A stretch of 45,795 nucleotides of DNA from Thermoplasmata archaeon. Its GTDB lineage: Archaea; Thermoplasmatota; Thermoplasmata; Lutacidiplasmatales; UBA184. A model generated the notes under the pieces. It was not told the origin of the DNA, made no database searches, and saw nothing but the letters and a program-made list of their open reading frames with translations. Shown here piece by piece: positions 22,205 through 42,300 of this stretch; position 1 is the stretch's first letter; each line of letters begins with the position of its first letter. The position numbers were made by a program, and so were the translations under genes. The DNA lies in contig JAKAVY010000004.1 of assembly GCA_021827405.1 (NCBI GenBank), positions 23,763-69,557 of the forward strand. The letters run 5' to 3'.

Positions 22205-22495
22205 CTTCTGTCCCCTTCGGCCCGGCTCCGGGGCCTAATGGGCACACGGGCGGGGCCACTTAAGCCCTCACCCTGCCGGCCTGTCTCCGGTGTCGGTGAT
22301 CCCAGACCGCCGGTGTGACCCTTCCGGATGGGGGAAGGGCCCGCCCGGTCGCCACCCCCCGTCCCGGCGGCGCTTCGTCGGGGTCACGAAAGGGATGCCC
22401 GCCTCTCCGTACCGGACGGCCGGCGCCCCCCGCGCGCAGGCGCCCCCCTCACCGGAGGGACCGGCCTTATAGCGCGGGCCTCCGTCCCTAGAAAT
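22205..22495. promoter_or_regulatory. Divergent promoter region, DUF1059-fixX-apr / mrp
   Basis: These 291 bp separate the two divergent units. For mrp, CCTTATAGC at 22462-22470 is a clear TATA box about 29 bp before the ATG at 22496, so mrp is probably leaderless. For the minus strand, GGGCTTAAGTGG near 22256-22267 and CATTAGG near 22234 are weak candidates. I see no copy of the sulfur-regulon palindrome here and no convincing gene. Confidence 0.5.
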
Positions 22496-23404
22496 ATGGG
22501 TCCGTCCGACCCTCTCGGGGACAGGCTTCGCGTCCTCCCTTCGGCCCCGGCACCGGTGGGAGACTCGGCCTTCTCGATCGGACCGCTGGACCGTAGCCGT
22601 GTCCGGGCGGTGCTGGCCGTGATCTCCGGGAAGGGAGGGGTCGGGAAGACCTTCGTGACGGCCCTTCTGGCCGCGGCGTTCCGGCGGGAAGGGTTCGAGG
22701 TGGGGGTCCTCGACGCCGATGTCACCGGCCCGTCCATTGCCCGGGTGCTCGGACTGAGCGAGGTCCCCAAGCTCACTGCGGACGGGCTCTCCATCGAGCC
22801 CCTGCGGACCCGGGGTGGCATCTACGTCATGTCCATGGCTTCGGTGACCGCGGCGAGCAAGGTGCCGTTGCTCTGGAGGGGCCCCATGGTGAACAGCGCG
22901 ATCCGGGGGCTGTACAAGGACACCCGATGGCCATCGTTGGACTACCTCTTGGTCGACCTCCCTCCGGGGACGAGCGACGCGCCCATGACGGTCTTCCAAT
23001 CGCTCTCCCCCGACGGGGTCGTCCTTGTCACCGCCCCCACCGGCCTCTCCGCGGAAGTGGTGGCAAAGGCGGCGCAGATGGCCCGGACGTTCCGCGCCCC
23101 GATCCTGGGACTCATCGAGAACATGGCGTACCTGGTTTGCCCTCATGGGGAGGAGGTCCAGGTCTTCGGGCCCTCGCGAGGGAACGAGTACTCCCAGGCG
23201 ATGGGGGTCCCCTATCTCGGCAGCCTTCCGCTCGCTACCGGGGTGCCGGCGCTGGCGGACGACGGCCGTCTCGAGGAGTACCAGAGCCCGGCCGGGGACC
23301 TTTTGGCCCGTCGGGTGCGGCTTTTGCTGGACCGGCTTTCCTCGGCGGCCCGCCCTTCTGCGCCTCCGGCCGGCGCCGCCGCGCCCTCGGCGCCCGGGGG
23401 GTAA
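22496..23404 (+). CDS. Mrp/NBP35-type Fe-S carrier ATPase
   Basis: The product has 302 residues. The deviant Walker A GKGGVGKT (45-52) and the segments VLDADVTGPS, LLVDLPPGTSD and ENMAYLVCPH are diagnostic of Mrp/NBP35 proteins, which carry and deliver [4Fe-4S] clusters. The usual CPxC cluster motif is CPHG (C215 to G218), leaving one cysteine in the whole protein, so cluster binding across a dimer is in doubt. The ATG is about 29 bp from a TATA box. As the first gene of the dsrEFH-like run it may serve maturation of the many Fe-S proteins of the sulfur island. Confidence 0.9.
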   Translation: MGPSDPLGDRLRVLPSAPAPVGDSAFSIGPLDRSRVRAVLAVISGKGGVGKTFVTALLAAAFRREGFEVGVLDADVTGPSIARVLGLSEVPKLTADGLSIEPLRTRGGIYVMSMASVTAASKVPLLWRGPMVNSAIRGLYKDTRWPSLDYLLVDLPPGTSDAPMTVFQSLSPDGVVLVTAPTGLSAEVVAKAAQMARTFRAPILGLIENMAYLVCPHGEEVQVFGPSRGNEYSQAMGVPYLGSLPLATGVPALADDGRLEEYQSPAGDLLARRVRLLLDRLSSAARPSAPPAGAAAPSAPGG

Positions 23405-23408
23405 GGGC

Positions 23409-23639
23409 ATGGCCATCGCTCCGGGGGCCCGGCCCGGCGTTCGCATCCTCAAGGCGCACGGAGATCCCTTCGAGGCCGAGATGGCCGAGGGGGGCGAGGC
23501 GCCCACCAACCCCGAGCACCTGGCGGTCCTCAACCGCCTCTTCTATGCCAGCACGGTCGACCTCGGCGGCTTGGTGGAGGTCCAGGGGACTCTCTATGTC
23601 TGCACGCGGTCGGGGTGGCGGCTCGCCCCGAGAGCTTGA
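23409..23639 (+). CDS. Small hypothetical protein in the dsrE operon
   Basis: The product has 76 residues from ATG 23409, only 4 bp after mrp. It has a helix (NPEHLAVLNRLFYAS) and C-terminal strands (GGLVEVQGTLYVCTRSGWRLAP) with one Cys. I do not recognise a family. It is probably a real gene because it fits tightly between mrp and dsrE, with 9 bp on its 3' side, and its composition matches its neighbours. Confidence 0.6.
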   Translation: MAIAPGARPGVRILKAHGDPFEAEMAEGGEAPTNPEHLAVLNRLFYASTVDLGGLVEVQGTLYVCTRSGWRLAPRA

Positions 23640-23648
23640 GGGGCCCGG

Positions 23649-24005
23649 ATGGGAGAGCTGGGGATCCTCGTGTTCCTGTCCCCCTTCCAGCACCGGGGTC
23701 CGGAGTCGGCCGCGCGCCTGGCCGAGGCGGCGGTGCGGGAGGGTCATCGGGTCAGCCTCTTCTTCCTCGGGGACGGTGTCTACAATACCAGTCGGGCTTT
23801 GGCGGAGGCGAACCCGGACTCCGTGGTCCGCCGCATGGCCGAGCTTCCCTCGGAGGTCCAGCGGATCAACTGTTCCACCTGCGCACGCGCCCGGGGGCTC
23901 TCTGAGGACAAGCTCACTTCCCACGTGCGGAACGGGACCTTGGAGGACCTCTCCGAACTGCTCCTGTCGGCCGATCGCTTCCTGACCTTTGCCCAGGAGG
24001 GATGA
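23649..24005 (+). CDS. DsrE-like sulfurtransferase subunit
   Basis: The product has 118 residues. The fold pattern GILVFLSPF...AARLAEAAVREGHRVSLFFLGDGVY followed by a Cys-containing loop INCSTCARARGL (C75, C78) is that of DsrE/TusD. The cysteine in that loop carries the persulfide in known members. The next two genes resemble DsrF and DsrH, so a DsrEFH-type complex is likely. Such a complex passes sulfane sulfur with TusA. Its stop overlaps the next start by 4 bp (ATGA). Confidence 0.8.
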   Translation: MGELGILVFLSPFQHRGPESAARLAEAAVREGHRVSLFFLGDGVYNTSRALAEANPDSVVRRMAELPSEVQRINCSTCARARGLSEDKLTSHVRNGTLEDLSELLLSADRFLTFAQEG

Positions 24006-24364
24006 TCGTGCCGGGCCTCGTCCTCTGGGTCCGTCACCCTCCTTACACCTCGGCCCACCTGACGGAAGCGATCCGGATCATGGCCATGACCACGGCCCTG
24101 GGAGTGCCCGTTCGTTGCCTGTTCACGGGGGAAGGGGTTCGGGCCCTCGTCCAGGGCCAGGAACCCTACCTCTTGGGCCCCCCTCTGGAACGGCTCCTCG
24201 TGGAGATCGTCACCCCCGAGAGCCCGGCGCTGGTGCATCAGGCCTCGCTGAAGCTCCGTGACCTCGGACCGGCACGCCTCACCTCGTCCCTCCCCTGGGT
24301 CCCCGCCGATGACCGGAGTGTGGCGGAGGCCCTGGTGTCCGCTGACCGGGTGGTCCCTCTATGA
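24002..24364 (+). CDS. DsrF/TusC-like protein
   Basis: The product has 120 residues. The segment RHPPYTSAHLTEAIRIMAM followed by PVRCLFTGEGVRALVQGQEP matches the TusC/DsrF pattern (aPyGs, then lF.gdGV..L..gQ.p). It should be the middle subunit of a DsrEFH-like heterohexamer. Its only Cys is in VRCLF, so it probably does not carry sulfur itself, as in known DsrF. It overlaps both neighbours by 4 bp (ATGA). Confidence 0.75.
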   Translation: MIVPGLVLWVRHPPYTSAHLTEAIRIMAMTTALGVPVRCLFTGEGVRALVQGQEPYLLGPPLERLLVEIVTPESPALVHQASLKLRDLGPARLTSSLPWVPADDRSVAEALVSADRVVPL

Positions 24365-24675
24365 CCCACGAACCCTCCCCCTCCCCTTGGCTCGTGGTCC
24401 GTCAGTCCCGCCTCTCCCGGGAAGATCGGGGGGTCCTCGAGGCCCTGCGCGCGCTGGCCGCTGAGCGGGGTGCCCGGCTCCTGGAGGTGCTGCTGGGGAA
24501 TGCCAGCTACGAGGTGGAAGGGGCCTCCCCCGGCCTGGGGGGGTTCGTCCTGCTCGAGGAGGACCACCGAGGTCGGGGATTGCTCGTCCCCCCGGGGGTG
24601 GACGCCCGGGTGGTCTCGGAGGCGGAGCTCGTCCACCAGCTCTTCGCAAGCCCGAAGGTGATCCAATTCCCATGA
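24361..24675 (+). CDS. DsrH/TusB-like protein
   Basis: The product has 104 residues. The second half (FVLLEEDHRGRGL, GVDARVVSEAELVHQLF) follows the DsrH/TusB pattern of an acidic turn, an RGL motif and a terminal helix. It has no cysteine, so it cannot carry a persulfide. Position after dsrE- and dsrF-like genes supports the call more than the sequence alone. It overlaps both neighbours by ATGA. Confidence 0.6.
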   Translation: MTHEPSPSPWLVVRQSRLSREDRGVLEALRALAAERGARLLEVLLGNASYEVEGASPGLGGFVLLEEDHRGRGLLVPPGVDARVVSEAELVHQLFASPKVIQFP

Positions 24676-25097
24676 CGCAGGGAGGCCGGGACGCCCCTTT
24701 CGTACCCTTGCCCATGCACGGGTCGGGGCCATCCCGAGGTCCTCCTCCCGCGGTCCGGCTGGTCTACGTGATCTATCGCCCCCCGGAGGCGCTCGAGTTC
24801 CCAGGGGTCCAGGGGATCCTTCCCGGTCCGATCTTCCATGCCGCCGGGATCCTGCTCCGGGAGGACGAGGAATACCTCGCCCTGGGAGAGGTCGCCTTTC
24901 CGGAGGAGAATCCCGAGTATGTCCAGCGGTTCGGCCGGGCGCTATTCCCGGCCTTCCGCCACATCCTGACCCTTCCCAAGTCGGCGCTTCTCGGACGTAA
25001 GGACTTCCCGCTCGGTGGACCCTCCCCCGGCGACGATCCCTCCGATTCGACGGAGGCGGGCTCGCCTCCGGAAAATTGGACGAGTGACAAGTCGTAA
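24672..25097 (+). CDS. Hypothetical protein of the dsrEFH-like operon
   Basis: The product has 141 residues and its ATG overlaps the dsrH-like stop. The core runs from about residue 27 to 115, beginning RLVYVIYRPPEALEFPGVQG; both ends are low complexity. It contains no cysteine. A later ATG at 24714 could also be the start. I do not recognise the family. Its tight linkage suggests a part in sulfur transfer, but nothing in the sequence proves this. Its last bases overlap the promoter elements of tusA. Confidence 0.6.
   Translation: MTQGGRDAPFVPLPMHGSGPSRGPPPAVRLVYVIYRPPEALEFPGVQGILPGPIFHAAGILLREDEEYLALGEVAFPEENPEYVQRFGRALFPAFRHILTLPKSALLGRKDFPLGGPSPGDDPSDSTEAGSPPENWTSDKS
25076..25091. promoter_or_regulatory. 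Weak sulfur-regulon palindrome before tusA
   Basis: TTGGACGAGTGACAAG matches the sHdr-operon site at 11 of 16 positions; the left half is perfect and the right half is poor. It lies directly upstream of the tusA promoter, in the same place as the apr site relative to its promoter. Alone it would not be convincing. Confidence 0.35.
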
Positions 25098-25102
25098 ATA
25101 CT
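25092..25102 (+). promoter_or_regulatory. Promoter of tusA-dsrE3
   Basis: TCGTAAATACT combines a BRE-like start with an AT-rich core. It lies about 40 bp before the ATG of tusA, so the leader would be roughly 15 nt. The same GTAAATAC core occurs on the minus strand near 42301-42309 before the other dsrE-tusA unit. Confidence 0.5.
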
Positions 25103-25138
25103 GGGCCGCCGTAGCATGGCACGCCCACGGAGAAGACG

Positions 25139-25375
25139 ATGACCCATCCTGCCCCTAAGGCCAACCTGGACGCTCGAGGGCTCTTTTGCCCCATGCCCAT
25201 CCTCAAAGCGAGCCAGCTGTTGGAGACCCTCGGCCGCGGGGAGGTCCTGGAGGTCTTGGCCGACGACCCGGCCGCTCCTTCGGACTTCGCGGCGTTCGCC
25301 AAGCGGACGGGGAACCCGCTGCTGGCGAGCGAGGAGAACAGCGGAACCTACCGATTCGTCTTGGAACACAAGTGA
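25139..25375 (+). CDS. tusA: TusA-family sulfur carrier protein
   Basis: The product has 78 residues, usual for TusA. The N-terminal motif LDARGLFCPMPILK contains the sulfur-carrying Cys (C17) in CPMP. TusA carries sulfane sulfur between DsrE proteins and the sHdr system. It is followed after 18 bp by dsrE3, the standard archaeal pairing. A second TusA lies at 41399-41671. Confidence 0.93.
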   Translation: MTHPAPKANLDARGLFCPMPILKASQLLETLGRGEVLEVLADDPAAPSDFAAFAKRTGNPLLASEENSGTYRFVLEHK

Positions 25376-25393
25376 GCAACGGAGAACCGAAAC

Positions 25394-25849
25394 ATGACCG
25401 CAGTGACCGGAGCCTCGAGGACCAACGAGACCGTCGAACAGGCCGCCAAGCAGGGGAAGCGCTCCCTCATCCTGGTGGTCTCCAAAGGAGGGGCAGACAT
25501 GGCCTATCCCTCGCTTATCCTGGCCACCACGGCCCGGGCCCTGGGGATGGACGCCCACATCTACTTCACCTTCTGGGGGATGCAGCTTTTGACGGCGGAG
25601 GGCCGCAAGCATGCCATGGACGTCTTCCCGGCCCCCCTTCAGCAGAAGGTGTCGGCGAAGTTCCCCTCCATCGAGCAGTTCATGCAGCAGGCCAAGGCGG
25701 CGGGGGTCCGGATCCACGCCTGCTCCCCCACGATGGACATGTTCGGCCTCACCAAGGAGAACCTGGTGGGTGAGGTGGACGACATCATCGGGGCCAGCAC
25801 GTACCTGGAGTTGGCCTCCCGCCCGGATGCCCTCACCCTCTTCATCTGA
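25394..25849 (+). CDS. DsrE3-type sulfurtransferase
   Basis: The product has 151 residues. It has the DsrE3 features IYFTFWGMQLL and the Cys loop HACSPTMDMFGLTKENLV with C110. In sulfur oxidisers DsrE3 proteins exchange persulfide sulfur with TusA. It is next to tusA and upstream of a lipoyl-binding protein gene. Two other genes of this superfamily, at 28744 and 41668, are clearly different in sequence. Confidence 0.88.
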   Translation: MTAVTGASRTNETVEQAAKQGKRSLILVVSKGGADMAYPSLILATTARALGMDAHIYFTFWGMQLLTAEGRKHAMDVFPAPLQQKVSAKFPSIEQFMQQAKAAGVRIHACSPTMDMFGLTKENLVGEVDDIIGASTYLELASRPDALTLFI

Positions 25850-26039: not shown

Positions 26040-26558
26040 GTGCGTCTCGACCCCGGCGGACGCGAACCCTCTTCCCTCAGGTCGCCAGGGGACGCGGCCC
26101 AAGGGGAAGGGGCGGACCCCCGGTCCGGGTCCCCGAGCGCCGGTAGCGGGAGGGAGAATTCTTGCCCGACGGACGTTCCCGGCCCCTCCTCCGAGCCGGT
26201 CTCGCTTCCGGGGGGTCTCTGGGTCCGTCAAGGGCCTGACGGAGGGGTGACCGTGGGCCTGACGAAGGAGGTCCGGGCCCAGGTGGGTCGGGTCACCCGC
26301 TTCCGCGGGCCGAGTCCCGGGACCTTCCATCGGCAGGGGGAGCCTCTGATCAGCCTGGAGTCGGAGAAGTGGGTCGGGCACTTCTCCAACCCTCTCGATG
26401 GGACGGTGACCGAGGTGAACGAGGCGTGGTACCGGGACCCGTCGGCGCTGGGGGCGTGTCCTTTGGAGGACGCCTGGTTCTATCGCCTCCTCCCGAAGGC
26501 GCCCCTCATTGGGACCGCGAGCCGCCCCCGGGCGGAAGGTGGTTCGCCAGAGGTGTGA
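26040..26558 (+). CDS. lbpA: Lipoyl-binding protein LbpA, copy 1 (GcvH-like)
   Basis: The secure part runs from about 26180. It reads GLWVRQGPDGGVTVGLTKEV, then LESEKWVGHFSNPLDGTVTEV, with the lipoyl lysine in SEKW (K110 if the GTG at 26040 is the start). The fold is that of GcvH. With lipoate ligase directly downstream and sHdr nearby it is a sulfur-oxidation LbpA rather than a glycine cleavage protein. The start is a problem: no ATG is in frame, GTG 26040 adds about 58 disordered residues, and GTG 26247 would cut into the domain. The stop overlaps the ligase start (GTGA). Confidence 0.78.
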   Translation: MRLDPGGREPSSLRSPGDAAQGEGADPRSGSPSAGSGRENSCPTDVPGPSSEPVSLPGGLWVRQGPDGGVTVGLTKEVRAQVGRVTRFRGPSPGTFHRQGEPLISLESEKWVGHFSNPLDGTVTEVNEAWYRDPSALGACPLEDAWFYRLLPKAPLIGTASRPRAEGGSPEV

Positions 26559-27592
26559 AGGGAGCCCCCTCGTCCGCGGGTCTCGCCTTGCCCGGGGCTC
26601 GGCCCCCCGGGCGGCTCTTGGACCTGGGGTCGTGCGAACCCTTTCGGGCGCAAGCCTTCGCGGAGAGCGTCGCGGTCGCCGTGGCGCGGCGGGAGGCGCC
26701 CGAGACCCTCATCCTCTGCCGGCCGGACCGCCCATACGTCTCCATCGGGTTCCATCAGGTCTCTTCGGAGGAGATCGAGGACGGCGAACTGAGGCGGAGG
26801 GGTCTCCCGCTGATCCGTCGGGTCACCGGGGGCGGCACCACCTTCCTGGACCCCAGCCAGGTCTTCTACCAACTGATCTACCGGGCGGAGCCGGGATCGG
26901 GCCTGAGCGGGGGGCCGGGGGACTTTGCGACCGCGCTGGCGGCTCCCCTGGCCCTGCTCGAACGGCTCGGGCTTTCGGCCCAGCTCCGCCCTCCGAGCGA
27001 CCTGGTGGTCGCCGGTCGCAAGCTTTCGGGCAACGCCGGAGGGACCTGGGAGGGGGCCCACCTCCTCGTGGGAGGGTTGCTCGGGACCGCGGACGTGGAG
27101 GCCATGGCCGCCATCCTTCGTTGTCCATCCCGGGACTTCCGGGATTTCGTACAGAAGGCGATGGGCGAGGCGTTGACCGGGCTCGACCATGAGCTTTCGC
27201 ACCCTCCCTCCCCCCGGGAGCTTTCGGAAAAGCTCCGATCGAGCTTCGAGGACTTTGGCCCGTGGAGGCTTACCCCCGGGGACCCTGAACGGACAGAGGA
27301 GGAGCGATTCCTTACCGAAGTCCTCCCCCGGCACCGGGACCCCTCCTGGGTCCACCTCCCGGCCCTCCCGCGGGCTCCCTCCGCGGTCCAGCGGGCCGTT
27401 CGGGTGGCCGGGGGGCGCTTCTGCCTGGTCGTGGAGGGCCCCGGGAGGACAGAGTACTTTGTCCTGGCCAACGGCAACGAGATCGAGTCCGCCTACCGGA
27501 TCGGACCGGCAGGTCCCGAGGCGCCGTTGCTCGCGAGCCACGGGACCTGGGAAGACCTCCGGCAGAAGGTCCGGTCTTGGGGAGGGGCCTAG
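26555..27592 (+). CDS. Lipoate-protein ligase (sLpl-type), copy 1
   Basis: The product has 345 residues from the GTG that overlaps the lbpA stop. It has the LplA/LplB family motif RRVTGGGTTFLD (88-99) and the lipoyl-AMP binding lysine in AGRKLSG (K156), then a C-terminal accessory domain of about 90 residues. It should attach lipoate to the neighbouring LbpA. Its stop TAG shares the palindrome CTAG (27589-27592) with the stop of the convergent second ligase. Confidence 0.88.
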   Translation: MKGAPSSAGLALPGARPPGRLLDLGSCEPFRAQAFAESVAVAVARREAPETLILCRPDRPYVSIGFHQVSSEEIEDGELRRRGLPLIRRVTGGGTTFLDPSQVFYQLIYRAEPGSGLSGGPGDFATALAAPLALLERLGLSAQLRPPSDLVVAGRKLSGNAGGTWEGAHLLVGGLLGTADVEAMAAILRCPSRDFRDFVQKAMGEALTGLDHELSHPPSPRELSEKLRSSFEDFGPWRLTPGDPERTEEERFLTEVLPRHRDPSWVHLPALPRAPSAVQRAVRVAGGRFCLVVEGPGRTEYFVLANGNEIESAYRIGPAGPEAPLLASHGTWEDLRQKVRSWGGA

Positions 27593-28719
27593 GAGGGGCC
27601 GGGGGGAGCGGACCCGGGGCCGGCTTCCACGATTGTGGAAACCAGATCTGCCCGGGAGATCCCGATGAATCGCACCTGGTAGTTGTGTTCCCACTGGGAA
27701 ACCACGGTGTCGAGCGCGGCGGCCTCCAGCGGGGCCCCTTGGAGGGCCTGCTCCAGCTCTCCCAGATGACCGGTGAATGGCTGGGTGAAGAAGTCGCCGG
27801 AGATCTCCACCTCCTCGATCCGGCCCTCCCGGGAGAGAAGGGTGATCCGGAGAAGCTTCCCGGCCTTGCGGTCGACCCGGCGCAGGGAGACCCCATGGGC
27901 GATCTTCACCGACCGGGCACCCTCCGCGCTCTCGCCGCGGAACCCCGGGTGCGAGGCGTCCTTCTGGAAGGTCCAGGCGTCCTCCGAGCGTTCCCGCAGG
28001 AGCCGGTCGAGCCGATCCTGTTCCTCCCCGGACAGGGTCCCGGAGACCAGAGGGCTCCCCAGGTGCCGCTCCAGTTCCTCCTGGAGAAGCCGGCACACGA
28101 GTTCCCGGGAGGGGACCTGACCGGTCTCCTTCCGGAGGCTGGTCAACCACTCCTCCATCCCCTCGGAGAGCTTTCCCCGGAACTTCTCATCGGGGACCCG
28201 GAGGGCCCGGCTCATGGCCGGCAGGTCCAGGTCGAGGAGGATATCCCCGACGAGCACCCAGCAGCCGTCCAACAGGAGAGCTCCGTTGGCGCTGATCTTG
28301 CGCCCCCGGATCGCGAGGTCGTTCACCCCGGCGCGCTCCGCGGTGAGTCCTAACCGCTGGAGCGTCGAGCGCACCGGTCGGAGGTAGCGTTCGTAGAAGG
28401 ACTCCACCCCTCCCTGGGTCCCGGGAGCCCCGGCGGGGACGAGGAGCATGTAATCCTGTTCCCAGGGCCCGTCCAGGATGGCGCCCCCTCCCACCACCCG
28501 TCGGACCACCGGGATGCCTTTTTCCCGGCAGTGGCCCAGGTCGATCTCTCGCTCGGCCTCCTGATGGAACCCCACGTTCGCGAAGGGCGCGCGGGGGTAG
28601 AGCACCACCGCGGTAGGGGGAGAGGCGAGCGAGCCTATCGAGGGAGCGAGGGCCACGAAGAGGTTCACCATGGTCGGCCCGTCGACCGGCCCCAGGTCGA
28701 GCCAGCGCCAATCTCCCAT
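27589..28719 (-). CDS. Lipoate-protein ligase (sLpl-type), copy 2
   Basis: The product has 376 residues from ATG. The motif RRVVGGGAILD (73-83) and the lysine in RGRKISANG (K141) mark a lipoate ligase, with a C-terminal accessory domain after about residue 240. It is only distantly similar to copy 1. It is the last gene of the sHdr operon, 24 bp after dsrE, so its natural partner should be the LbpA of the same operon. The window has no lipoyl synthase gene, so lipoate may be assembled elsewhere. Confidence 0.88.
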   Translation of the reverse strand: MGDWRWLDLGPVDGPTMVNLFVALAPSIGSLASPPTAVVLYPRAPFANVGFHQEAEREIDLGHCREKGIPVVRRVVGGGAILDGPWEQDYMLLVPAGAPGTQGGVESFYERYLRPVRSTLQRLGLTAERAGVNDLAIRGRKISANGALLLDGCWVLVGDILLDLDLPAMSRALRVPDEKFRGKLSEGMEEWLTSLRKETGQVPSRELVCRLLQEELERHLGSPLVSGTLSGEEQDRLDRLLRERSEDAWTFQKDASHPGFRGESAEGARSVKIAHGVSLRRVDRKAGKLLRITLLSREGRIEEVEISGDFFTQPFTGHLGELEQALQGAPLEAAALDTVVSQWEHNYQVRFIGISRADLVSTIVEAGPGSAPPGPS

Positions 28720-28743
28720 GGGTCTCGAAGGGCTCTCCCGCGA

Positions 28744-29154
28744 TCAGAAGGAGATGACGGAGTCCGCGTCCAGGGCCAGATCGGCCAAGGTGGCGGAGCC
28801 GACGAGTTGTACCCCCTCCAGGAGGTCCCCCTCGGAGATCTCGCAGAGGTCCCGGCAACTCTCGGCGCAGGCGAGGAACTTCACCCCGTTCTCCCGGGCC
28901 ATATCGATGAACATCTTGAGGTTCCCGCCCTTCTTCAACGGGACCTTCTCCGCGGCGCCCTTGCGCAAGAGCTCCGGAGCGTGCATGAGGAAGTACATGG
29001 TGGTGTCGATCTCCATGGCCGCCATCAGGGCGGCCGTGTAGAACGGAGCGTACGTCTTGTCCGGGTCTTCCGGCCCCGAGGTCATGATCATGAGGATCTT
29101 CTTCCCTTCCGGGTCCGGAGGAGCGGGGGTCGCCTCGGGCATCGGTGCTCTCAT
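28744..29154 (-). CDS. DsrE-family protein of the sHdr operon
   Basis: The product has 136 residues. It has the DsrE fold pattern KKILMIMTSGPEDPDKTYAP and MYFLMHAPELL, and a Cys loop LACAESCRDLCE with C96, C100 and C104. Three cysteines in this loop is more than most DsrE proteins have. The ATG overlaps the lbpA stop (ATGA). It is probably a sulfur donor or acceptor dedicated to sHdr and LbpA. Confidence 0.83.
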   Translation of the reverse strand: MRAPMPEATPAPPDPEGKKILMIMTSGPEDPDKTYAPFYTAALMAAMEIDTTMYFLMHAPELLRKGAAEKVPLKKGGNLKMFIDMARENGVKFLACAESCRDLCEISEGDLLEGVQLVGSATLADLALDADSVISF

Positions 29155-29600
29155 CCCTGGCAGCGGACGCAGTGGATCTTGTCCCGCTCCAGGATCTCCC
29201 GGAACTTGGCCAGGGCGGCCTCTCCCCGAAGGAGGTCATTCACCTCGGCCGGCTGGGAGAACTTCAGTCGGGCGATCCACCCCTTCCCGTACGGGTCGGT
29301 GTTCAGGAGGCCCGGGTCCTTCTCCACCTCGGGGTTGGCTTCGCTCACCACCCCCGAGAGCGGGGACATCACCGGCCCGGCCCATTTCCCGCTCTCCACG
29401 GTGGCGAGGGGCTTGCCCCGTTCCCGGGAGGTCCCCGCCGCCTTGATGCGGACGTGCAGGATCTTCCCGGCCCGGGTCTGGGCCGGGTCCGTGAGCCCCA
29501 CCCGGACGGTATCCCCCTCCACCTGGACCCAGGTCATCTGGGTGCGCTCCACGAAATAGAGCAACCCGTCCGGGAACTCGCAGCCTCCGAGGATGGTCAT
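29151..29600 (-). CDS. lbpA: Lipoyl-binding protein LbpA, copy 2 (sHdr operon)
   Basis: The product has 149 residues. The GcvH-like fold shows TWVQVEGDTVRVGLTDPAQ, the lipoyl lysine in ESGKW (K72) and GVVSEANPEV. A C-terminal CVRC (C144, C147) is an extra that could be redox active or bind metal. In sHdr systems lipoylated LbpA carries sulfur for the complex. The gene directly follows hdrB2 and is followed by dsrE and a lipoate ligase, the typical setting. Confidence 0.9.
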   Translation of the reverse strand: MTILGGCEFPDGLLYFVERTQMTWVQVEGDTVRVGLTDPAQTRAGKILHVRIKAAGTSRERGKPLATVESGKWAGPVMSPLSGVVSEANPEVEKDPGLLNTDPYGKGWIARLKFSQPAEVNDLLRGEAALAKFREILERDKIHCVRCQG

Positions 29601-29613: not shown

Positions 29614-30543
29614 TCAGGGGAACCCCTTCCCCTTTAAGAACAGGTCGGGGCGCGAGAAGTTGTCCTTCAACCTCGCCTCTCGGAGGCTCGCCCCCAGGGC
29701 CACCGCCATGAGCTGGGTGAAGTACGCCACGGGAAGGATCGCCTCCGGTCCGTAGGTCTGGCGGATCCGGTCCAGGTTGTTCTCGATGTTGATCTGCCCG
29801 AGCGGGCAGATGGTGGCCACCAGATCGGCGCCGGCCCGTTTCGCCTCGTTCATCACGGACGCGCTGAAGGCCACCGAGACGTCGAGGTCGCTCAGAGCGT
29901 GGCCCCCTCCGCAGCAGATGGTCTTCGCACTGTAGTCCGATAGCACCGTGGCTCCGCAGGCCCTCAACAAGGCATCCAGGAACGCCGGATGCTCCGGGTC
30001 GTCGGTCCCTGGGGTGAGGCCGACCCCGGTGTATCGTTTGGGCCGACTGTAGAGGCAGCCGTAGTACGGGGCGACCGTGAGCCCGGCCAGGGGGCGTCGG
30101 ACCCGGGCGCGGACCCGGTCCGGCCCGGCGCGGTTGTGGATGAACTCGAGGACATGCTGGACCGAGGCTTCCCCGTCATAGGCGGGGCTACCCCCAGCGC
30201 TCAAATGTTCGTTGATCCGGCCCCGGGTAGCCTCCTCGGAGACGGCATCGTTCGCCCGGGTCAACGAGTAGACGCATCCGTTGCAGGCGGCAACGACCTG
30301 ATGACGGCCCATCCCCCGGGCCAGGGCCAGGTTCCGGGCTGGGAGGACCACGGAGACGTCCTGACTGAGGTTCTTCACCTCGGTGGCCCCGCAGCAGTTG
30401 TAATCCACGATCCGGTCCATGGAGAGCTCCAGTCGTCGGAGCACCCACTGGCAGGAGACCTCGTAGGCCTTGCCCAGGCCGTCCAGGGAGCAGCCGGGAT
30501 AGTAGGCCGGCACCTCGTCCGGTCGGCCCCGGGAGACGTTCAC
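29614..30543 (-). CDS. hdrB2: sHdrB2, CCG-domain subunit
   Basis: From the GTG overlapping the hdrC2 stop (GTGA) the product has 309 residues. The first CCG site is complete: C18, C50-C51, C87, C90. The second has C163, C210-C211 and C246, but the last cysteine is Gly (CPLG instead of CPLC). CCG sites hold noncubane [4Fe-4S] clusters in HdrB of methanogens. In sHdr this subunit belongs to the presumed active site for sulfur attached to LbpA. The open frame extends further upstream but overlaps hdrC2. Confidence 0.9.
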   Translation of the reverse strand: MNVSRGRPDEVPAYYPGCSLDGLGKAYEVSCQWVLRRLELSMDRIVDYNCCGATEVKNLSQDVSVVLPARNLALARGMGRHQVVAACNGCVYSLTRANDAVSEEATRGRINEHLSAGGSPAYDGEASVQHVLEFIHNRAGPDRVRARVRRPLAGLTVAPYYGCLYSRPKRYTGVGLTPGTDDPEHPAFLDALLRACGATVLSDYSAKTICCGGGHALSDLDVSVAFSASVMNEAKRAGADLVATICPLGQINIENNLDRIRQTYGPEAILPVAYFTQLMAVALGASLREARLKDNFSRPDLFLKGKGFP

Positions 30544-31265
30544 GGTCCGCTCCCGGGCGGGGGACCTCGCGCGGTCTCCCGCCGACGACGCAGATCCTCG
30601 GTCATGAGACGAGTGAGCACGGGTCGCATCTTTCCCCATCCCCGGGTCCGATGGGCGAAGGGGCCGGTGTGGAGCCGCCCGCTCAGGAGCATCGATAAGC
30701 CCAGGCGGAAGAGCTCCCGGCCGGGGGTCTTGCGGCCTTCCAGCCGTTCGTACGTTTGGAAGAGAGCCGCCTCGTCGAGGACCCCGCGCCGGAGGAGATT
30801 TTCCGTGTACGCGCGGTCGAAGCGGTCCGCGGGGCTTTCCTTCGCCATCCCCGTGACCTCAAGATAGCTACCGATGCTGTGCACCACCTCCTCCACCTTG
30901 ACGCCCTTGGGGCACCGTTCCACGCACTTGTTGCAGGACACACAGCGCCAGATGGTCTCCGCGTACTTCCGGAGCTCGGCCTCATACCCGATCTGGGCGA
31001 GGTAGATGAAATACCGGGGGTTGAACTCCTCAAGCCCGAAATCGGTGTGCATGCAGCAGCCGGCCGTACAGGTCCCGCATTGCCAGCATCGGGAGATGGT
31101 CTCCCCCTGGGGTTGGGAGCGGACCCACTCGAGGACCTTGAGGTCCAGGTCGGTATGGACCCGAGAACGCAGGAAGGTGTTCCAATCGCCCGAGACGTCG
31201 ATCCCGTCCAGCTCGAGCTGCTCGGTCCGTTGGACCTCCACCAGGGAGGGTTCAACGATGGGCAT
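30540..31265 (-). CDS. hdrC2: sHdrC2, two [4Fe-4S] ferredoxin-like subunit
   Basis: The product has 241 residues. Two four-cysteine sites are visible: C60, C63, C66, C70 (CWQCGTCTAGC) and C108, C111, C114, C118 (CVSCNKCVERCPKG). The rest is helical. As HdrC it should wire electrons between the CCG subunit hdrB2 and flavoprotein hdrA. The ATG overlaps the 3' end of the hyp gene by 14 bp. Confidence 0.92.
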   Translation of the reverse strand: MPIVEPSLVEVQRTEQLELDGIDVSGDWNTFLRSRVHTDLDLKVLEWVRSQPQGETISRCWQCGTCTAGCCMHTDFGLEEFNPRYFIYLAQIGYEAELRKYAETIWRCVSCNKCVERCPKGVKVEEVVHSIGSYLEVTGMAKESPADRFDRAYTENLLRRGVLDEAALFQTYERLEGRKTPGRELFRLGLSMLLSGRLHTGPFAHRTRGWGKMRPVLTRLMTEDLRRRRETARGPPPGSGP

Positions 31266-31989
31266 CAGACCTCCGGCCCCGGATGCCGAGGAGGAGCGTC
31301 GCCAGTCCCAGGTTGCCGGGAAGCAGCGTCTCGATCCCTCCCCCCTGGAAGGTCTCCGAGGCCGCGTGGGCGATCCGTCCGGCGTAGGTCAGCGAGAAGA
31401 GAAGGTCGACCGCCGCGAAGGTCCGGGACGGGAATCCCAGGGCGCTCAGCTGGAGTCGGATCGCGCCCGTCCAGGCCTGGGCTTCCTCGTAGGACCGGGG
31501 CGGGGAGCGGGCAAATTCGTTCAGGACCCCGGTCCCCTGGGTCGGGTTGAAGACCCAGCGAGGGAGCAGGGGGATCCGATCCGGGGCGGCCGAGTGGAGG
31601 AGGTCCGCCATCGCATCGAGGCAAACCCCGGGGGGCGCCCCCCGGAGACGGGTGGAAAGCTCCGGCAGGTCCCGGGCCCCGTGGCGCCCGGCCCGCGCCT
31701 CTTGGAGGGTCCTCCCGACCTCGACCCAACGGGTCTCCCGAAGCAAGGCGGATTGGTAGGGCCGGGCCGAGAGCACCCCGGCCAGCCAGGGCTCCCAAGA
31801 GCCCGGGAGGTCCGTAGGGGAGGTATCCGGGAGAGCAGAGACCGCCTTGAACCGTTCCTCCACCCGGACCTCCAACTGGTCCAAGGCGCCCTTGCCTGCG
31901 GGAAGCACCCACTGCTGGAAGGCCCGGGTGACCCTACGGGGGTCCACGCCATCGGGCGCGATGGAGGCTTCCTCCTCAACGGCGAGCAT
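31252..31989 (-). CDS. sHdr-associated hypothetical protein (Hyp)
   Basis: The product has 245 residues. It lies between hdrA and hdrC2, exactly where known sHdr operons keep a conserved gene of unknown function. It is soluble, with helical stretches (RAFQQWVLPAGKGALDQL, EEAQAWTGAIRLQLSALGF) and one Cys. The start overlaps the hdrA stop by 14 bp and its end overlaps hdrC2 by 14 bp. I recognise it by position rather than by motif. Confidence 0.78.
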   Translation of the reverse strand: MLAVEEEASIAPDGVDPRRVTRAFQQWVLPAGKGALDQLEVRVEERFKAVSALPDTSPTDLPGSWEPWLAGVLSARPYQSALLRETRWVEVGRTLQEARAGRHGARDLPELSTRLRGAPPGVCLDAMADLLHSAAPDRIPLLPRWVFNPTQGTGVLNEFARSPPRSYEEAQAWTGAIRLQLSALGFPSRTFAAVDLLFSLTYAGRIAHAASETFQGGGIETLLPGNLGLATLLLGIRGRRSDAHR

Positions 31990-33013
31990 GTTGGTACGCC
32001 CGGAGGGCAGCCCCCATCCCCTCCGTCACGGAATCGGGGATCGCCTTCGGCCCGGTGGCCGCCCCGGCAAGGTAAAGGCCCGGGACACCGGAGTCCACCG
32101 GGTTGATGTCGGAGATCTTCGGGGTGATGAAGCCCTCCGGCCCCACGGGAAGGTGGAAGAGCTCGGCCATCCTTTTGGTCCCCTGTCCGGGTTCCATCCC
32201 GCTCGCCAGGACGACCATGTCGAAGGGGACCTCGGTGGGGCGGCTCAGCAGGGTGTCCTCCCCGGTGGCGAGCAGCCGTTTCCCCCCCTCGGCCAGGGTT
32301 ATCTGGCCGATCCGGCCACGGATGAACTTCACCCCGTACTGCTGCATGGACTTCCAGTAGAGGTCCTCCCAGAGCCCGTAGGTGCGGATGTCCATGTAGT
32401 AGACGAAGGCCTCCATCTCCGGATGCTTCTGCCGGATCTCCACGGCCTGCTTGATGCTGACCACGCACCCCATCCGGCAGCACCACGGGTTTCCGACCTG
32501 GAGGTCGCGGGAGCCCACGCAGAGGACCCAGGCGATCCGTTTCGGGGGCTTCCCGTCGGAGGGTCGAAGGACCTTGTCGTCGTGGATCATCCCCTCGAGC
32601 TCCTTGAAGTCCAGGACGTCGGGATAGCGCCCGTAACCGTACTCGAACTTTCGGCGGGAATCGAAGTGGTCAAAGCCGGTGGCGAGGATCACGGCCGAGA
32701 CCTCCCGTCCCTCCGGTCCCTTCCCCCCCTGGAGGGTGACGCGGAACCCGGGAGGGGCGGGGTCCACCGCGGTGACGGAGGTCCCCAATCGGACCTCCAC
32801 CCGGGGATTCCCCTCCACTTTCCCGAGGAGGTCCCCCAGCACTTCCTCCGCGGGCTTGAGGTCGGGGGCGAGGAGCGAGTAGTGCCAGCGCTTGGGGTTC
32901 CCGCCCAAGTAGCCCTCCTTCTCCACCAGCAGTGCCTCGGCCCCCAGGGACGCGAGCTCGGCAGCCGCGCTGAGCCCGGCAGGGCCCCCGCCGACCACGA
33001 GCACCGGGTTCAC
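31976..33013 (-). CDS. hdrA: sHdrA, FAD-containing subunit
   Basis: The product has 345 residues, the short form typical of sHdrA (methanogen HdrA is about twice as long). The FAD motif VLVVGGGPAGLSAA is at the N-terminus. An iron-sulfur site is suggested by C165, C178, C179 and C183 (CVGSRDLQVGNPWCCRMGC), and a second dinucleotide motif LYLAGAATGP is near the end. It is the electron hub of the complex. The GTG start overlaps the hdrB1 stop (GTGA). Confidence 0.93.
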   Translation of the reverse strand: MNPVLVVGGGPAGLSAAAELASLGAEALLVEKEGYLGGNPKRWHYSLLAPDLKPAEEVLGDLLGKVEGNPRVEVRLGTSVTAVDPAPPGFRVTLQGGKGPEGREVSAVILATGFDHFDSRRKFEYGYGRYPDVLDFKELEGMIHDDKVLRPSDGKPPKRIAWVLCVGSRDLQVGNPWCCRMGCVVSIKQAVEIRQKHPEMEAFVYYMDIRTYGLWEDLYWKSMQQYGVKFIRGRIGQITLAEGGKRLLATGEDTLLSRPTEVPFDMVVLASGMEPGQGTKRMAELFHLPVGPEGFITPKISDINPVDSGVPGLYLAGAATGPKAIPDSVTEGMGAALRAYQHARR

Positions 33014-34311
33014 GAAGAGACCCTCCCGTTACCGGGGGAGACGGAGGCCGAAGCTACGCTCGGCTCCTCCACGGGAAGGACCTGTCCCTTGTTGATGGCA
33101 AAGTACTGCTCGATCTCCGCCCGGGGGGCGTGCAGGAGTTCGGGGGCGGTCCCGTTCTTGAGCGCCTTGAGGTACTCCATGAACTCGTTCTTGGCGCTTC
33201 GCCAGTCGATCCCCATCTTCTCCAGGAGATGGTCCACCGGGGAGGCGTGCCAGTGCACTTGGGCGATCTTGTACGGATGGGCCCCCATGGCGAGCGCGGC
33301 GAACTGGACGTCGGCGAGCACCGGAAGCAGGTAGGACTGTCCGTGGGCCTTCCCGATCCACTGGCTCTTGTCCAGGGTGGTGACGCATCCTGTGTCGCTG
33401 GTGATGGCCACGTCGGCGTGGGCTTCCTCGACCATGGGGCGGATCTTCCGCAGGTTGGCGAAGGACCGGCTGAACTCTCGTTCGCTCAGGATGTGCCTGA
33501 AGCCGAACCCGCAGCAGTCGTACCAGGTGGAGTAGTCGGCCACCCGGGCCCCCAGGCTCAGGAGGATCCCGGTAGGGACCGCTGGGCGCTGCCCGCCATA
33601 GACCGCCTCGTCGTAGACCGCATCCTCGGGGACCATCTTGTAGTAATGACAGGGCTCGTGCACCGTGGCCACCACCGCGCTCACGTCGAAGCGGCGTCGG
33701 GCCACGATCTCCGGGGCCATGGCCTGGACCCACTCCGAGTAATGGACGATCTCCTCGGGTAGCACCAGGTCCCGCCCCATCCCGCGGAGCACCTCGCGGA
33801 CCTTGTGGCGCACCTCCGCGTTCTCCACAAGGAGCTTCCGCATCTCCTTGTAGTCCCCGAAACTGGTCCCGCAGTGGACCAAAGGGAAGTGGTCCGTCTC
33901 ATAGGCGCGGTGGAAGTTCCTCGCGGCCACCGCCGCCAGCGCCACGGGGTTCGAGGTGGCCGTGCCGTGGTAGTTCCATGCGGTGCAGGAGGTCTGGTGC
34001 GGCTCGTTGAGATAACGTCGGCCAGTCTGGTTCATGACCCAGAGGAGGGAAGAGGGATACCCGGGGATGTTCCCGCACTGGCCGCACGATTTGTGGTGCC
34101 AGAGCCGGTCCGTGGGGATCTTCTTATTCCAGCCGAAGAGGGTCTGCATCTGCACGGGCCGGTTCTCCGGACGGATCCGGTGGATGAGGAGCTCTCCCTT
34201 CTCCTCCAGCCGGAGCATCTCCTCCCGGACGTCGGTCACCTTCTTGCCGGTCCCGCGTTGCCGTTGCGTCCGTTCCTCAAGGACCTTCTTGATCTCTGCG
34301 GCGTTGAGCAT
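33010..34311 (-). CDS. hdrB1: sHdrB1, CCG-domain subunit
   Basis: The product has 433 residues. The N-terminal half has a changed cysteine set (C76, C79, C109, C147). The second half has a CCG-like set C221, C266-C267 and C309 (DTGC), without the usual Cys three residues further on. This degenerate pattern differs from methanogen HdrB and fits the sHdrB1 type. The ATG lies 11 bp after hdrC1. Confidence 0.9.
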   Translation of the reverse strand: MLNAAEIKKVLEERTQRQRGTGKKVTDVREEMLRLEEKGELLIHRIRPENRPVQMQTLFGWNKKIPTDRLWHHKSCGQCGNIPGYPSSLLWVMNQTGRRYLNEPHQTSCTAWNYHGTATSNPVALAAVAARNFHRAYETDHFPLVHCGTSFGDYKEMRKLLVENAEVRHKVREVLRGMGRDLVLPEEIVHYSEWVQAMAPEIVARRRFDVSAVVATVHEPCHYYKMVPEDAVYDEAVYGGQRPAVPTGILLSLGARVADYSTWYDCCGFGFRHILSEREFSRSFANLRKIRPMVEEAHADVAITSDTGCVTTLDKSQWIGKAHGQSYLLPVLADVQFAALAMGAHPYKIAQVHWHASPVDHLLEKMGIDWRSAKNEFMEYLKALKNGTAPELLHAPRAEIEQYFAINKGQVLPVEEPSVASASVSPGNGRVSS

Positions 34312-34322
34312 GGCCGTCCCTC

Positions 34323-35087
34323 CTAGCCCTCGAAGCTGGCCACCGGCCCCTTCATGGTGATGAGCTCGTCCCGGTACTTCTCCCGGGCCTCCCGGAACTC
34401 CTCCCGGCGCTCCTCGATGATGTCGACCAGCATCTCGGTAAGGTCCGGGTCGAGCCCCCGGAGCATGTCCAGGACACCGGTCTCCTCGTAGATCCGGAAG
34501 AGCTCGAGGGAGGTCTGGACAGAGACCTCCCAGGAGGAGCGGGTGGTCTGCAGTACGTCGAGGGGGATCGCCTTGCGCATCACCTCGGGAGAGACCCCCC
34601 AGACCTGGTCAGACCCCGTGGCGAACGGCCCCCAGTCCCTAAAGAAGTCCGGTTGGATCATATCGGCGGAGACCTGGGTGCCCACCGTCATGAGGAGCGT
34701 CAAGGACCGCCCGAACGGGGCGAGGGTCTTGCGGGTGGCCTCCAACCCATGCCGTACCGAGAGCTCTCGCATGACGCTGATGATGCCGGCGATGTCGTTC
34801 CCGAAGCGGCAGCGCATGTTGCAAGTGTAACACTGGCAGCAGGACCAGATCTTCTCCTGGAGGGCGTCCCAGAGCGTGGTGGCATCCCCGGTGGCCGCGA
34901 TCTGCAGCATCTCTCGCGGGGAGAAATCGTAGAAGCGGGCCGCCGGGCAGCCCGTGGTGCACTCGCCGCAGTTCAGGCAGCCGAGGACGTACTCGTGGTA
35001 CCGGGGGTCCTGATGGAACTCCTCGTACAACGTCTGGGAAAGCCCCCGGTCCGCGGGGCTCATGCGGCGACGTCCGGTGAGTTCCAT
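34323..35087 (-). CDS. hdrC1: sHdrC1, iron-sulfur subunit
   Basis: From ATG 35087 the product has 254 residues. It has C37, C40, C43, C47 (CLNCGECTTGCP) and a second, shifted set C83/C84, C86, C89, C93 (CCQCYTCNMRC). It opens the sHdr operon. An alternative TTG at 35177 would add 30 residues and fits the promoter better (about 36 bp after a CTTATCA box), but the family N-terminus favours the ATG. The stop lies 11 bp before hdrB1. Confidence 0.9.
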   Translation of the reverse strand: MELTGRRRMSPADRGLSQTLYEEFHQDPRYHEYVLGCLNCGECTTGCPAARFYDFSPREMLQIAATGDATTLWDALQEKIWSCCQCYTCNMRCRFGNDIAGIISVMRELSVRHGLEATRKTLAPFGRSLTLLMTVGTQVSADMIQPDFFRDWGPFATGSDQVWGVSPEVMRKAIPLDVLQTTRSSWEVSVQTSLELFRIYEETGVLDMLRGLDPDLTEMLVDIIEERREEFREAREKYRDELITMKGPVASFEG

Positions 35088-35171
35088 CGACGGAGGCTGG
35101 GCGGCTTCCTCCTCGGTGAGCGATAGGCTCCGGTGCGGGAGATGGGCCACCACGCTCAAGGTCGTCCTCGG

Positions 35172-35197
35172 GTCCAAGAACTTGGACGTTTGTCCAA
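35172..35197. promoter_or_regulatory. Sulfur-regulon operator of the sHdr operon, overlapping double palindrome
   Basis: TTGGACGTTTGTCCAA (35182-35197) is an inverted repeat with perfect 6-bp arms around GTTT. It shares its left arm with a second perfect inverted repeat at 35172-35187, 7-bp arms (GTCCAAG/CTTGGAC) around AA. Three half-sites are thus arrayed in 26 bp. A GGCTTATCA box at 35210-35218 puts the expected transcription start at about 35187, inside the site, so a bound protein would block transcription. Confidence 0.65.
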
Positions 35198-35332: not shown

Positions 35333-35962
35333 TCAGGCCAGCCCGCTGGCGTGGGGGGCCCGCATCGGCAGGGAGGGTTCCCCCAGCGGGTGGTTCGGGC
35401 GCTCCTTATGGACCCGTTGGATGGCCAGCGGCCGCACCCCCTCGATGAAAGGATGGCGGCGCAGCGAGGCGACCAACGCCTGGGAGGCCCCGGGGGAGGG
35501 CGTGGAGGCCAAGGCCAGGAGCTCTTGACCGCCGGCCAGTTCGAACACGTAGCAGACCTGGGGTTCCTCGGCCACGGCCTCGGCCACCCGCTTCAGTTCC
35601 ACCGGGGGACGGCGGCGCGGCCGCACGAAGAGCATGACACAACTGGGGGAGCGGCCGATCTCCGTCAGTCGCTGCACGCTGACCAGGGGCACGAACCCCT
35701 GCAGGACCCGAAGACGGACCAGGTGACGGACCCGGGTGCTCACGGTGGTCACGCTCGCCCCGAGCTTCCGCGCGACCTGCCGGAGGGAGGCCCGGCCGTC
35801 CTGCTGGAGGATGGCCAGGATCGCCGCATCCAGATTGTCCAGGGCAGGACGAGAGGTGCCGGCGGGTCGACCTCGCCGGACCAGGGAACGGGGCTCGTCG
35901 CGCCGCCGTCGGGCCCTCCGTCTCGCCCCAGCGGGGCCCCCCGACCCGGGCTTGCCGGTCAT
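35333..35962 (-). CDS. Lrp/AsnC-family transcriptional regulator
   Basis: The product has 209 residues. A basic, disordered N-terminus of about 40 residues precedes the Lrp-type winged HTH (LDNLDAAILAILQQDGRASL, QVARKLGASVTTVSTRVRHL). An effector-binding RAM-like domain follows, then a basic tail. The ATG overlaps the stop of the zinc-ribbon gene (ATGA). It is transcribed toward the sHdr operon, 245 bp before hdrC1, and is the best candidate for the protein that binds the shared palindrome. Bacterial sHdr operons are known to use an ArsR-type repressor instead; here none is seen. Confidence 0.87.
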   Translation of the reverse strand: MTGKPGSGGPAGARRRARRRRDEPRSLVRRGRPAGTSRPALDNLDAAILAILQQDGRASLRQVARKLGASVTTVSTRVRHLVRLRVLQGFVPLVSVQRLTEIGRSPSCVMLFVRPRRRPPVELKRVAEAVAEEPQVCYVFELAGGQELLALASTPSPGASQALVASLRRHPFIEGVRPLAIQRVHKERPNHPLGEPSLPMRAPHASGLA

Positions 35963-39565: not shown

Positions 39566-40225
39566 TCAGCGCGCTCGGACGGGCCCGGGCGGGTTCCCTA
39601 CCGTACGGCCCACCCGCTTGAGCAAAAGGAGGGTGAGGCGGAGCCCGCGTTGGATCTCCGGCTCGGAAAGGGCCCTTCCCAAGCTCATCACCCCGGTCAC
39701 GTGGGGGATGCGCTCCAGTTCCTGGCGGGTGCGTTCTCCGTCGGAAAGGCTCCCCACCTCCCCCATCAGCGCTTGGACCGACCCTGCGTTGCGGTGATAG
39801 GCCTCGAAGAGCGGCTCCAGTTCTTCCCACGGCGGGAGGTTCTGCACGAAGCGCATGGCGCCGAGGAGCGAGCTGCCCGCCTCCTCCACCATCTTGTCAG
39901 AGATGGCCTGGGTGACCCCGACGAGACCCTCCACGAGACCGGTGAGCGTCTCCAAAGCCCCGGTGTCCTTCCATTCGCCCACCTTCTCCAAGAGGAAGAC
40001 CAGCCCTTCCCGGGCCTTCTCGTTCTGAGCGATGGAGTCCAGGAGCGACAGGCTCGCCACCAGACCGGACCCGGAGGCCTGGACCATCCGGTCCGTGAGA
40101 GCATCGGTGAGCCCCACCGCCCCTTCGGCCAGTCCGAGGAGGGTCTCTAAGGTCCCGTCTGCCTGCCAGCGGTTCAGCCGTTCCGTCAGCGCCTTAAGCC
40201 CGGCCTCGGGCGATGGTTCCGGCAT
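39566..40225 (-). CDS. DUF1641 protein with internal repeat
   Basis: The product has 219 residues. It belongs to the DUF1641 type, which is often found beside SQR-like flavoproteins in sulfur-oxidising archaea. Two repeats of about 50 residues are seen near 20-75 and 85-135: GTLETLLGLAEGAVGLTDAL and GALETLTGLVEGLVGVTQAI at their starts. It is amphipathic and helical, without a clear membrane helix, and may help tether SQR. It starts 7 bp after sqr. Confidence 0.85.
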   Translation of the reverse strand: MPEPSPEAGLKALTERLNRWQADGTLETLLGLAEGAVGLTDALTDRMVQASGSGLVASLSLLDSIAQNEKAREGLVFLLEKVGEWKDTGALETLTGLVEGLVGVTQAISDKMVEEAGSSLLGAMRFVQNLPPWEELEPLFEAYHRNAGSVQALMGEVGSLSDGERTRQELERIPHVTGVMSLGRALSEPEIQRGLRLTLLLLKRVGRTVGNPPGPVRAR

Positions 40226-40232
40226 GACTTCC

Positions 40233-41378: not shown

Positions 41379-41398
41379 CTTGGGTTCCTCCTTTGCTT

Positions 41399-41671
41399 TC
41401 AATGCGTCTTTCGAACGAGGTATCGGTCAAACTCCGATCCCTCCTCGACCTTCACGAGCTCGTGGCCGGCCTTCTTGACCCACAGCGGGATATCCTGCCG
41501 CGAGCCCTGGTCCGACGAGAGCACCTCGATCTCCGCCCCCGCGTCCTCCTGTTGGATGGCCCCGATGAGCTCCATGAGAGGTCCCGGGCACCATGCCCCA
41601 CGGGCATCCACCCGTCGGGGCGGGGTGGGAGGGGAGGCTAGCGTAGCGGGGCTCGGCTCGGGGTCGGTCAT
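41399..41671 (-). CDS. tusA: TusA-family sulfur carrier protein, copy 2
   Basis: The product has 90 residues. After a Pro-rich N-terminus of about 20 residues comes VDARGAWCPGPLMELIGAI with the carrier Cys (C28) in CPGP. The ATG overlaps the dsrE stop (ATGA), and sqr follows after 20 bp. It probably receives sulfur derived from SQR. Confidence 0.92.
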   Translation of the reverse strand: MTDPEPSPATLASPPTPPRRVDARGAWCPGPLMELIGAIQQEDAGAEIEVLSSDQGSRQDIPLWVKKAGHELVKVEEGSEFDRYLVRKTH

Positions 41672-42102: not shown

Positions 42103-42223
42103 CGGGCTCACGCTCCGGAGACCCGCGACGGGAGACCGGTCACGAGCCCGTGGGCCGCCTGCGCTCCCCGGTCCCCCAGCGGGATCTCCCGGGAGTGGGT
42201 TCGACCCGCGGGGCCCTTGGGGG

Positions 42224-42239
42224 GTGGACAACCGTTCAA
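42224..42239. promoter_or_regulatory. Sulfur-regulon palindrome before dsrE-tusA-sqr
   Basis: On the minus strand TTGAACGGTTGTCCAC matches the sHdr-operon site at 13 of 16 positions. A BRE-like CGAAA abuts it on the upstream side. If translation begins at 42255 the site would be inside the gene; if at 42102 it is in the promoter or leader. Confidence 0.45.
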
Positions 42240-42300
42240 TTTCGCAGGCGACCATGAGAGACCCAAGCGTTCCTGACCTTGACAGGGCGACGGGTTCCGC

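Follow-up and report, generated by a model that had tools for sequence, protein, structure and literature searches.

The sHdr sulfur-oxidation system requires a lipoate-binding protein, LbpA, which carries sulfur and is modified by a lipoate:protein ligase linked to the same gene cluster (PMC6067878; PMC10332631). In the closest described systems, those of Hyphomicrobium denitrificans and Thioalkalivibrio sp. K90mix with their sHdr-LbpA and sLpl(AB) proteins (Cao 2018, PMC6067878; Tanabe 2023, PMC10332631), an sHdr core is accompanied by LbpA with a Lys-Trp site, by DsrE and TusA relays and by a cluster-linked ligase, and two LbpAs per cluster are known; the reason for two LbpAs in some sulfur oxidizers was stated to be unexplained where one ligase served both (PMC6067878). 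In this work we have analysed a stretch of 45,795 nucleotides (the window; contig JAKAVY010000004.1) from the genome of a Thermoplasmata archaeon (1.8 Mb, 71 contigs) that resembles these systems in the sHdr core, the Lys-Trp LbpA, the relays and the linked ligase. However, it has two ligases instead of one, LipA without detected LipS1/LipS2, an LbpA (LbpA1) that is short and without C-terminal cysteine, and ligase genes that converge with overlapping stops. In the literature searched, we did not come across any report of an sHdr cluster with two ligases. We propose that the window encodes one sHdr-LbpA sulfur-oxidation system with two lipoyl carriers, each of which would have its own lipoate:protein ligase, and we consider it fairly probable that both modules function and that each ligase serves mainly its own carrier. 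The names LbpA1 and LbpA2 serve as local labels and do not refer to the groups defined by Cao et al.

The first-pass annotation of this DNA had described two converging operons, each ending in a lipoate ligase and containing its own LbpA. Indeed, two proteins with a GCV_H domain and two with the LplA/B catalytic domain are encoded here in converging order. On the forward strand, the gene of LbpA1 (26040..26558; PF01597, E 3.7e-17, and alignment) overlaps with its stop codon the start of that of LplA1 (26555..27592, 345 aa; PF21948, E 1.1e-25), and these two form pair 1. On the reverse strand, pair 2 comes after HdrB1 and consists of LbpA2 (29151..29600; PF01597, E 1.8e-36), a DsrE-family sulfurtransferase (28744..29154; PF02635, E 6e-16; 3mc3, E 2e-34) that separates the carrier from its ligase, and LplA2 (27589..28719, 376 aa; PF21948, E 1.8e-28; PF10437, E 7.4e-7). 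Both ligase genes end within the same four bases (27589..27592), the palindrome CTAG, which provides the stop codon of LplA1 on one strand and of LplA2 on the other.

The arrangement was compared in 80 sHdr loci fetched by HdrB2 and in loci taken from relatives, the named ones being Thermoplasmata metagenome bins. The region is covered in fifteen loci that belong to the window's family or to its close kin (HdrB2 77-87% identical). LbpA1 and LplA1 are adjacent in 13 of these, which are all the loci with a complete region and at least one of the two genes. The facing arrangement occurs in six genomes of the window's family, and the ligases directly face each other, tail to tail, in 12 loci, a recurrence that is far beyond chance. 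As the exact 4-base stop overlap is found in seven of these 12, the convergent transcripts probably overlap or have a terminator region in common. In L060 about 17 kb of the contig separate pair 1 from LplA2, in L061 LplA1 is absent from the whole genome and LbpA1 from the locus, and in L064 the region is cut by the contig end. The DsrE gene beside LbpA2 is constant, and its product ranks among the cluster's best conserved proteins (82-94% in the family). Other Thermoplasmata with sHdr clusters, Ca. Sysuiplasma and kin (L072-L078), resemble the window in having LbpA2-DsrE-LplA2 behind HdrB1, followed by Mrp and DsrE, but show no LbpA1 or LplA1 in the stretches covered; therefore pair 2 is core and pair 1 is an add-on.

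The term operon fits pair 1 less well. A gap of up to ~300 bp lies between it and the preceding DsrE3A gene, and DsrE3A directly adjoins LbpA1 only in the window's genus and in L056. In the relatives pair 1 mostly follows a different block, with DUF1641 directly before it in nine of 13 loci and a flavoprotein like sulfide:quinone oxidoreductase (SQR) ahead of DUF1641 in eight. In the window's genome this block lies away from pair 1, at 39.5-42.5 kb (39566..42504, reverse strand), where DUF1641, the SQR-like flavoprotein, TusA and a DsrE2-like gene stand together, and the flavoprotein matches solved sulfide:quinone oxidoreductases.

Both carriers are encoded in or beside the sHdr cluster and have a strictly conserved lipoyl lysine, as sHdr-linked LbpAs do. 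The lysine contexts SEKW and ESGKW that had been read from the window hold in the alignments (ESEKW in LbpA1, ESGKW in LbpA2): the lysine is present in 12/12 LbpA1 sequences and is followed by tryptophan in 11 of them, a residue found at this place in none of 30 GcvH sequences. LbpA2 also has an N-terminal GGC and a C-terminal HCVRC, and so possesses the cysteines reported for LbpA at both ends (PMC6067878). LbpA1 was modelled with an H-protein fold (predicted local distance difference test, pLDDT, 86; best match 3klr). Its conserved core begins at about 26208 and the GTG start at 26040 is uncertain, as upstream of the core the similarity to the congeneric sister genome is weak, the two differ by a large indel, and the comparison yields no conserved start codon. 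Between these two genomes the ratio of nonsynonymous to synonymous substitution rates (dN/dS) is 0.27 for LbpA1, 0.30 for LplA1, 0.18 for LplA2 and 0.12 for LbpA2; judged by these ratios, pair 1 evolves faster than pair 2 but under purifying selection, and together with the intact lysines they counter the idea of a pseudogene or decay of pair 1. LbpA1 is a short, fast-evolving and strongly divergent carrier.

Regarding the ligases, RRxxGGG is invariant (RRVTGGGTTF in LplA1, RRVVGGGAI in LplA2) and the catalytic lysine is present in 12/12 LplA1 and in all LplA2 sequences (GRKLSGN and GRKISANG, respectively, in the window). The accessory, LplB-like domain is detected by PF10437 in LplA2 and by structure model only in LplA1, whose AlphaFold2 model (pLDDT 89.9; best Foldseek match the archaeal LplA 3r07, E 1.7e-19) comprises a catalytic and a C-terminal accessory domain, so that LplA1 is modelled as a full two-domain ligase and both proteins have the composition of Lpl(AB). 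Relay enzymes of the LipM or LipL type, which would move lipoyl or octanoyl groups between carriers instead of acting as ATP-dependent ligases, have the same fold, and there are several carriers in one genome. However, the ligase lysine is invariant and no cysteine is invariant across the 12 LplA1 sequences, and the modelled accessory domain is as in ligases, so a relay function of LplA1 is highly improbable.

In the ligase tree LplA1 and LplA2 lie in separate clades, the latter clustering with its counterparts from other Thermoplasmata (100/99). Both fall in a clade (100/99) with Bacillota and some proteobacterial ligases, that is, they group with sHdr-linked ligases. The proposal that the two sets do not stem from a recent duplication withstood the analysis, since the approximately unbiased (AU) test rejected a tree that joins LplA1 and LplA2 in one clade within the family (p-AU 0.003); for the carriers, with their short alignment, LbpA1 with LbpA2 was not rejected (p 0.24). 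In the carrier tree LbpA and GcvH are split (95/97), both carriers are on the LbpA side, and LbpA1 forms a clade that branches with the LbpAs (97/90). Pair 1 could also have been acquired horizontally, together with the SQR block, from a lineage outside the sample rather than by an old duplication within Thermoplasmata, as the long stems of LplA1 (3.0) and LbpA1 (1.4) and the placement of LplA1 outside the Thermoplasmata LplA2 clade would suggest. Nevertheless, the LplA1 stem calls for caution with the ligase tree, a deeper clade of LplA1 with Thermoplasmata sHdr ligases including those of other groups is not rejected (p-AU 0.46), and no donor was found among the 80 sHdr loci. We regard a horizontal origin as a real, if not quite even, possibility, and it is compatible with two dedicated modules.

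The proposal that each ligase serves its own carrier has to be weighed against the possibility that their specificities overlap, either ligase lipoylating either LbpA and the second being kept for dosage or for different acids (lipoate versus octanoate). Mirror-tree correlations (partial, given HdrB1) are significant for the cognate pairs, with r 0.45 (p 0.008) for LbpA1-LplA1 and 0.58 for LbpA2-LplA2, and each carrier has its higher value with its cognate ligase (LbpA1-LplA2 gives 0.28, p 0.054). The test of co-evolution proposed in the first-pass annotation does not separate the two cases cleanly, as the cognate pairs are not clearly above all cross pairs. Several observations speak against strict dedication, or against LbpA1 being a typical sHdr carrier. 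Cross correlations are significant too, and LplA1-LbpA2 (0.49) and LplA1-LplA2 (0.74) reach the level of the cognate pairs; L071 keeps both LbpAs and LplA1 while no LplA2 was found in its genome; and one Thioalkalivibrio LplA modifies both LbpA1 and LbpA2 of that organism, cross-species activity being reported as well (PMC6067878), so that the presence of two ligases does not by itself imply two specificities. Furthermore, sHdr-linked LbpAs have a conserved cysteine at each end of the protein, with exceptions among the archaeal LbpAs (PMC6067878), and the C-terminal cysteine is absent in 12/12 LbpA1 sequences, as is the C-terminal helix; the N-terminal one, kept by nine of the 12, is lacking in the window's LbpA1. 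On the other hand, LbpA1 and LplA1 co-occur and are always adjacent, the strong divergence of LbpA1 would favour a co-adapted ligase, and the case of L071 is weakened by its unusually diverged LbpA2 and by another, stronger LplA-family protein in the same genome. Overlapping specificity is on this evidence rather unlikely; of the two dedicated pairs first proposed, the separate conserved modules stand, while a dedication of each ligase to its neighbour is likely rather than established, a strict one-to-one relation even less so. A lineage with one ligase per LbpA and with natural absences of a ligase or of a whole pair offers a direct route to testing for separate functions of the two carriers.

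It could also be argued that LbpA1 is not a sulfur-oxidation carrier but a replacement for the glycine-cleavage H protein, or a decaying copy. Canonical GcvH, which works with LipM or LplA in Bacillus subtilis and Escherichia coli, shares the H-protein fold and the lipoyl lysine with the LbpAs but has no KW site, and in the window's family GcvPA, GcvPB, GcvT and a true GcvH, the latter beside ahcY, are encoded apart from the sHdr cluster. The window's genome has gcvPA, gcvPB and gcvT, apart from the LbpA genes; gcvP and gcvT are present in both sHdr-bearing genomes of its genus (G000, G001), but gcvH and its usual neighbour ahcY were found in neither, due either to loss or to a shared assembly gap. 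LbpA1 evolves fast, and the AU test does not reject its grouping with GcvH (p 0.20). However, LbpA1 and a true GcvH coexist in four sHdr-bearing relatives, which carry GcvH besides both LbpAs, and because pair 1 coexists with GcvH there, the absence of gcvH fails to explain it. As the KW site, the position among the LbpAs, the dN/dS of LbpA1 and the intact ligase also argue against it, we find this alternative very unlikely. An LbpA grouping with GcvH, with gcvPT elsewhere, had been named in advance as the outcome that would count against two lipoylation pairs; gcvP and gcvT are indeed elsewhere, and neither LbpA groups with GcvH or is linked to these genes, so that a GcvH identity of either carrier is unsupported, with the AU value of LbpA1 as the reservation. 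In a congener (G002) gcvH and ahcY are both present, and neither ligase was found.

As to the supply of lipoate, LipS1/LipS2 were found in 0/25 family genomes and LipA in 23/25. For LipS1/S2 the search started from similar radical SAM proteins, named by motif and position, that an alphaproteobacterial sHdr locus encodes, and these queries did match homologues in other families of the class. In bacteria sLpl(AB) nearly always goes together with LipS1/S2 (PMC10332631), a co-occurrence that the window's family does not show; the ligases would therefore work like sLpl(AB) but outside the sLpl(AB)-LipS1/S2 pathway. Because LipS1/S2 were not found and LipA is so widespread, the lipoyl sulfur for both pairs most likely comes from one LipA. 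Such a common source argues against the suggestion that the pairs use different sulfur donors, which we have abandoned for the lipoyl sulfur; DsrE3A was likewise discarded as a specific donor to LbpA1, its neighbourhood not being conserved in most relatives. Different sulfane donors to the finished carriers are possible. The family thus combines sHdr-linked ligases with LipA and no detected LipS1/LipS2.

In the mechanism that we infer, LplA2 would load the core carrier LbpA2 with octanoate or lipoate, and LbpA2 would present sulfane sulfur delivered by DsrE to the Hdr-like complex. LplA1 would do the same for LbpA1, and the octanoyl groups on the carriers would be completed by the LipA of the cell and not by LipS1/LipS2. 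LbpA1 probably serves on the SQR side as an accessory carrier, receiving sulfur or electrons from the upstream SQR/TusA/DsrE2/DUF1641 branch. A bolder version, which we think doubtful, is that LbpA1-LplA1 forms an orthogonal lipoylation module in which LbpA1 would be the upstream lipoyl acceptor of SQR/TusA/DsrE2 sulfur and would not act at the Hdr complex; if true, sulfur oxidation would include a further lipoyl-dependent step, distinct from the first, and a ligase would tell apart two LbpAs in the same cell.

The sHdr cluster closed by pair 2 runs on the reverse strand from 35177 to 27589 and is complete. Its core (29614..35177; Pfam CCG, Fer4 and Pyr_redox, HdrA by NCBIfam, and synteny across the fetched loci) comprises HdrC2 (34323-35177), HdrB2 (33010-34311), HdrA (31976-33013), the hypothetical protein Hyp (31252-31989), HdrC1 (30540-31265) and HdrB1 (29614-30639), followed by LbpA2, DsrE and LplA2. 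In sHdr type I sHdrC2 and sHdrB2 are separate, whereas in type II they are fused as B3 (PMC11582611); HdrC2 and HdrB2 are separate open reading frames in the window, and the cluster is thus type I-like. A gene for an Lrp/AsnC-type regulator (35333..35962, reverse strand) lies upstream and is conserved with the operon. Upstream of pair 1, on the forward strand (22457..25849), are sulfur-relay genes for an Mrp/NUBPL ATPase, DsrE-, DsrF- and DsrH-like proteins, a protein of unknown function, TusA (25139-25375) and the DsrE3A/DsrE2-like protein (25394-25849). Sulfobacillus-type (group III) clusters (L081-L084) are similar to the window in that two LbpAs are encoded on opposite strands close to a single sHdr cluster, with DsrE and TusA nearby, but only one ligase was detected in the stretches covered and both LbpAs are full-length with an N-terminal cysteine.

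Several minor observations concern the same protein families. In L071 (13321-17193) LplA2 is missing between DsrE and LplA1, and its LbpA2, the most diverged one, has an altered C-terminal CxxC (CTRGST). A third GcvH-like protein in G000 (contig C25:20249-20548; L037:1-624, reverse strand) has arginine in place of the lipoyl lysine (ESVRFTGP) and retains LbpA-like N- and C-terminal cysteines, with a rhodanese-like gene adjoining; GcvH-like matches of comparably weak score occur in many family genomes. The sole other ligase-family member found in G000 is a weak LplA/LipM-like protein (contig C44:48130; L055:9957-10685; 35.7 bits), and a further, stronger LplA-family protein, present in most relatives checked, was not found in the window's genome. 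In two alphaproteobacterial sHdr loci (L110:1530-3245 and L113:1547-3232, reverse strand) a LipS2-like gene is adjoined by a further gene for an LplA-like protein, which continues in one frame into a long Cys-rich C-terminal part and lacks the usual GRK(V/I)S lysine motif. Finally, the genes of AprA and AprB, together with another ferredoxin-like gene, are found close to the sHdr cluster (19289-22028 of the window), as in many related loci, which suggests oxidation of sulfite to sulfate via adenosine 5'-phosphosulfate (APS), and this group of uncultured archaea appears to oxidize sulfur.

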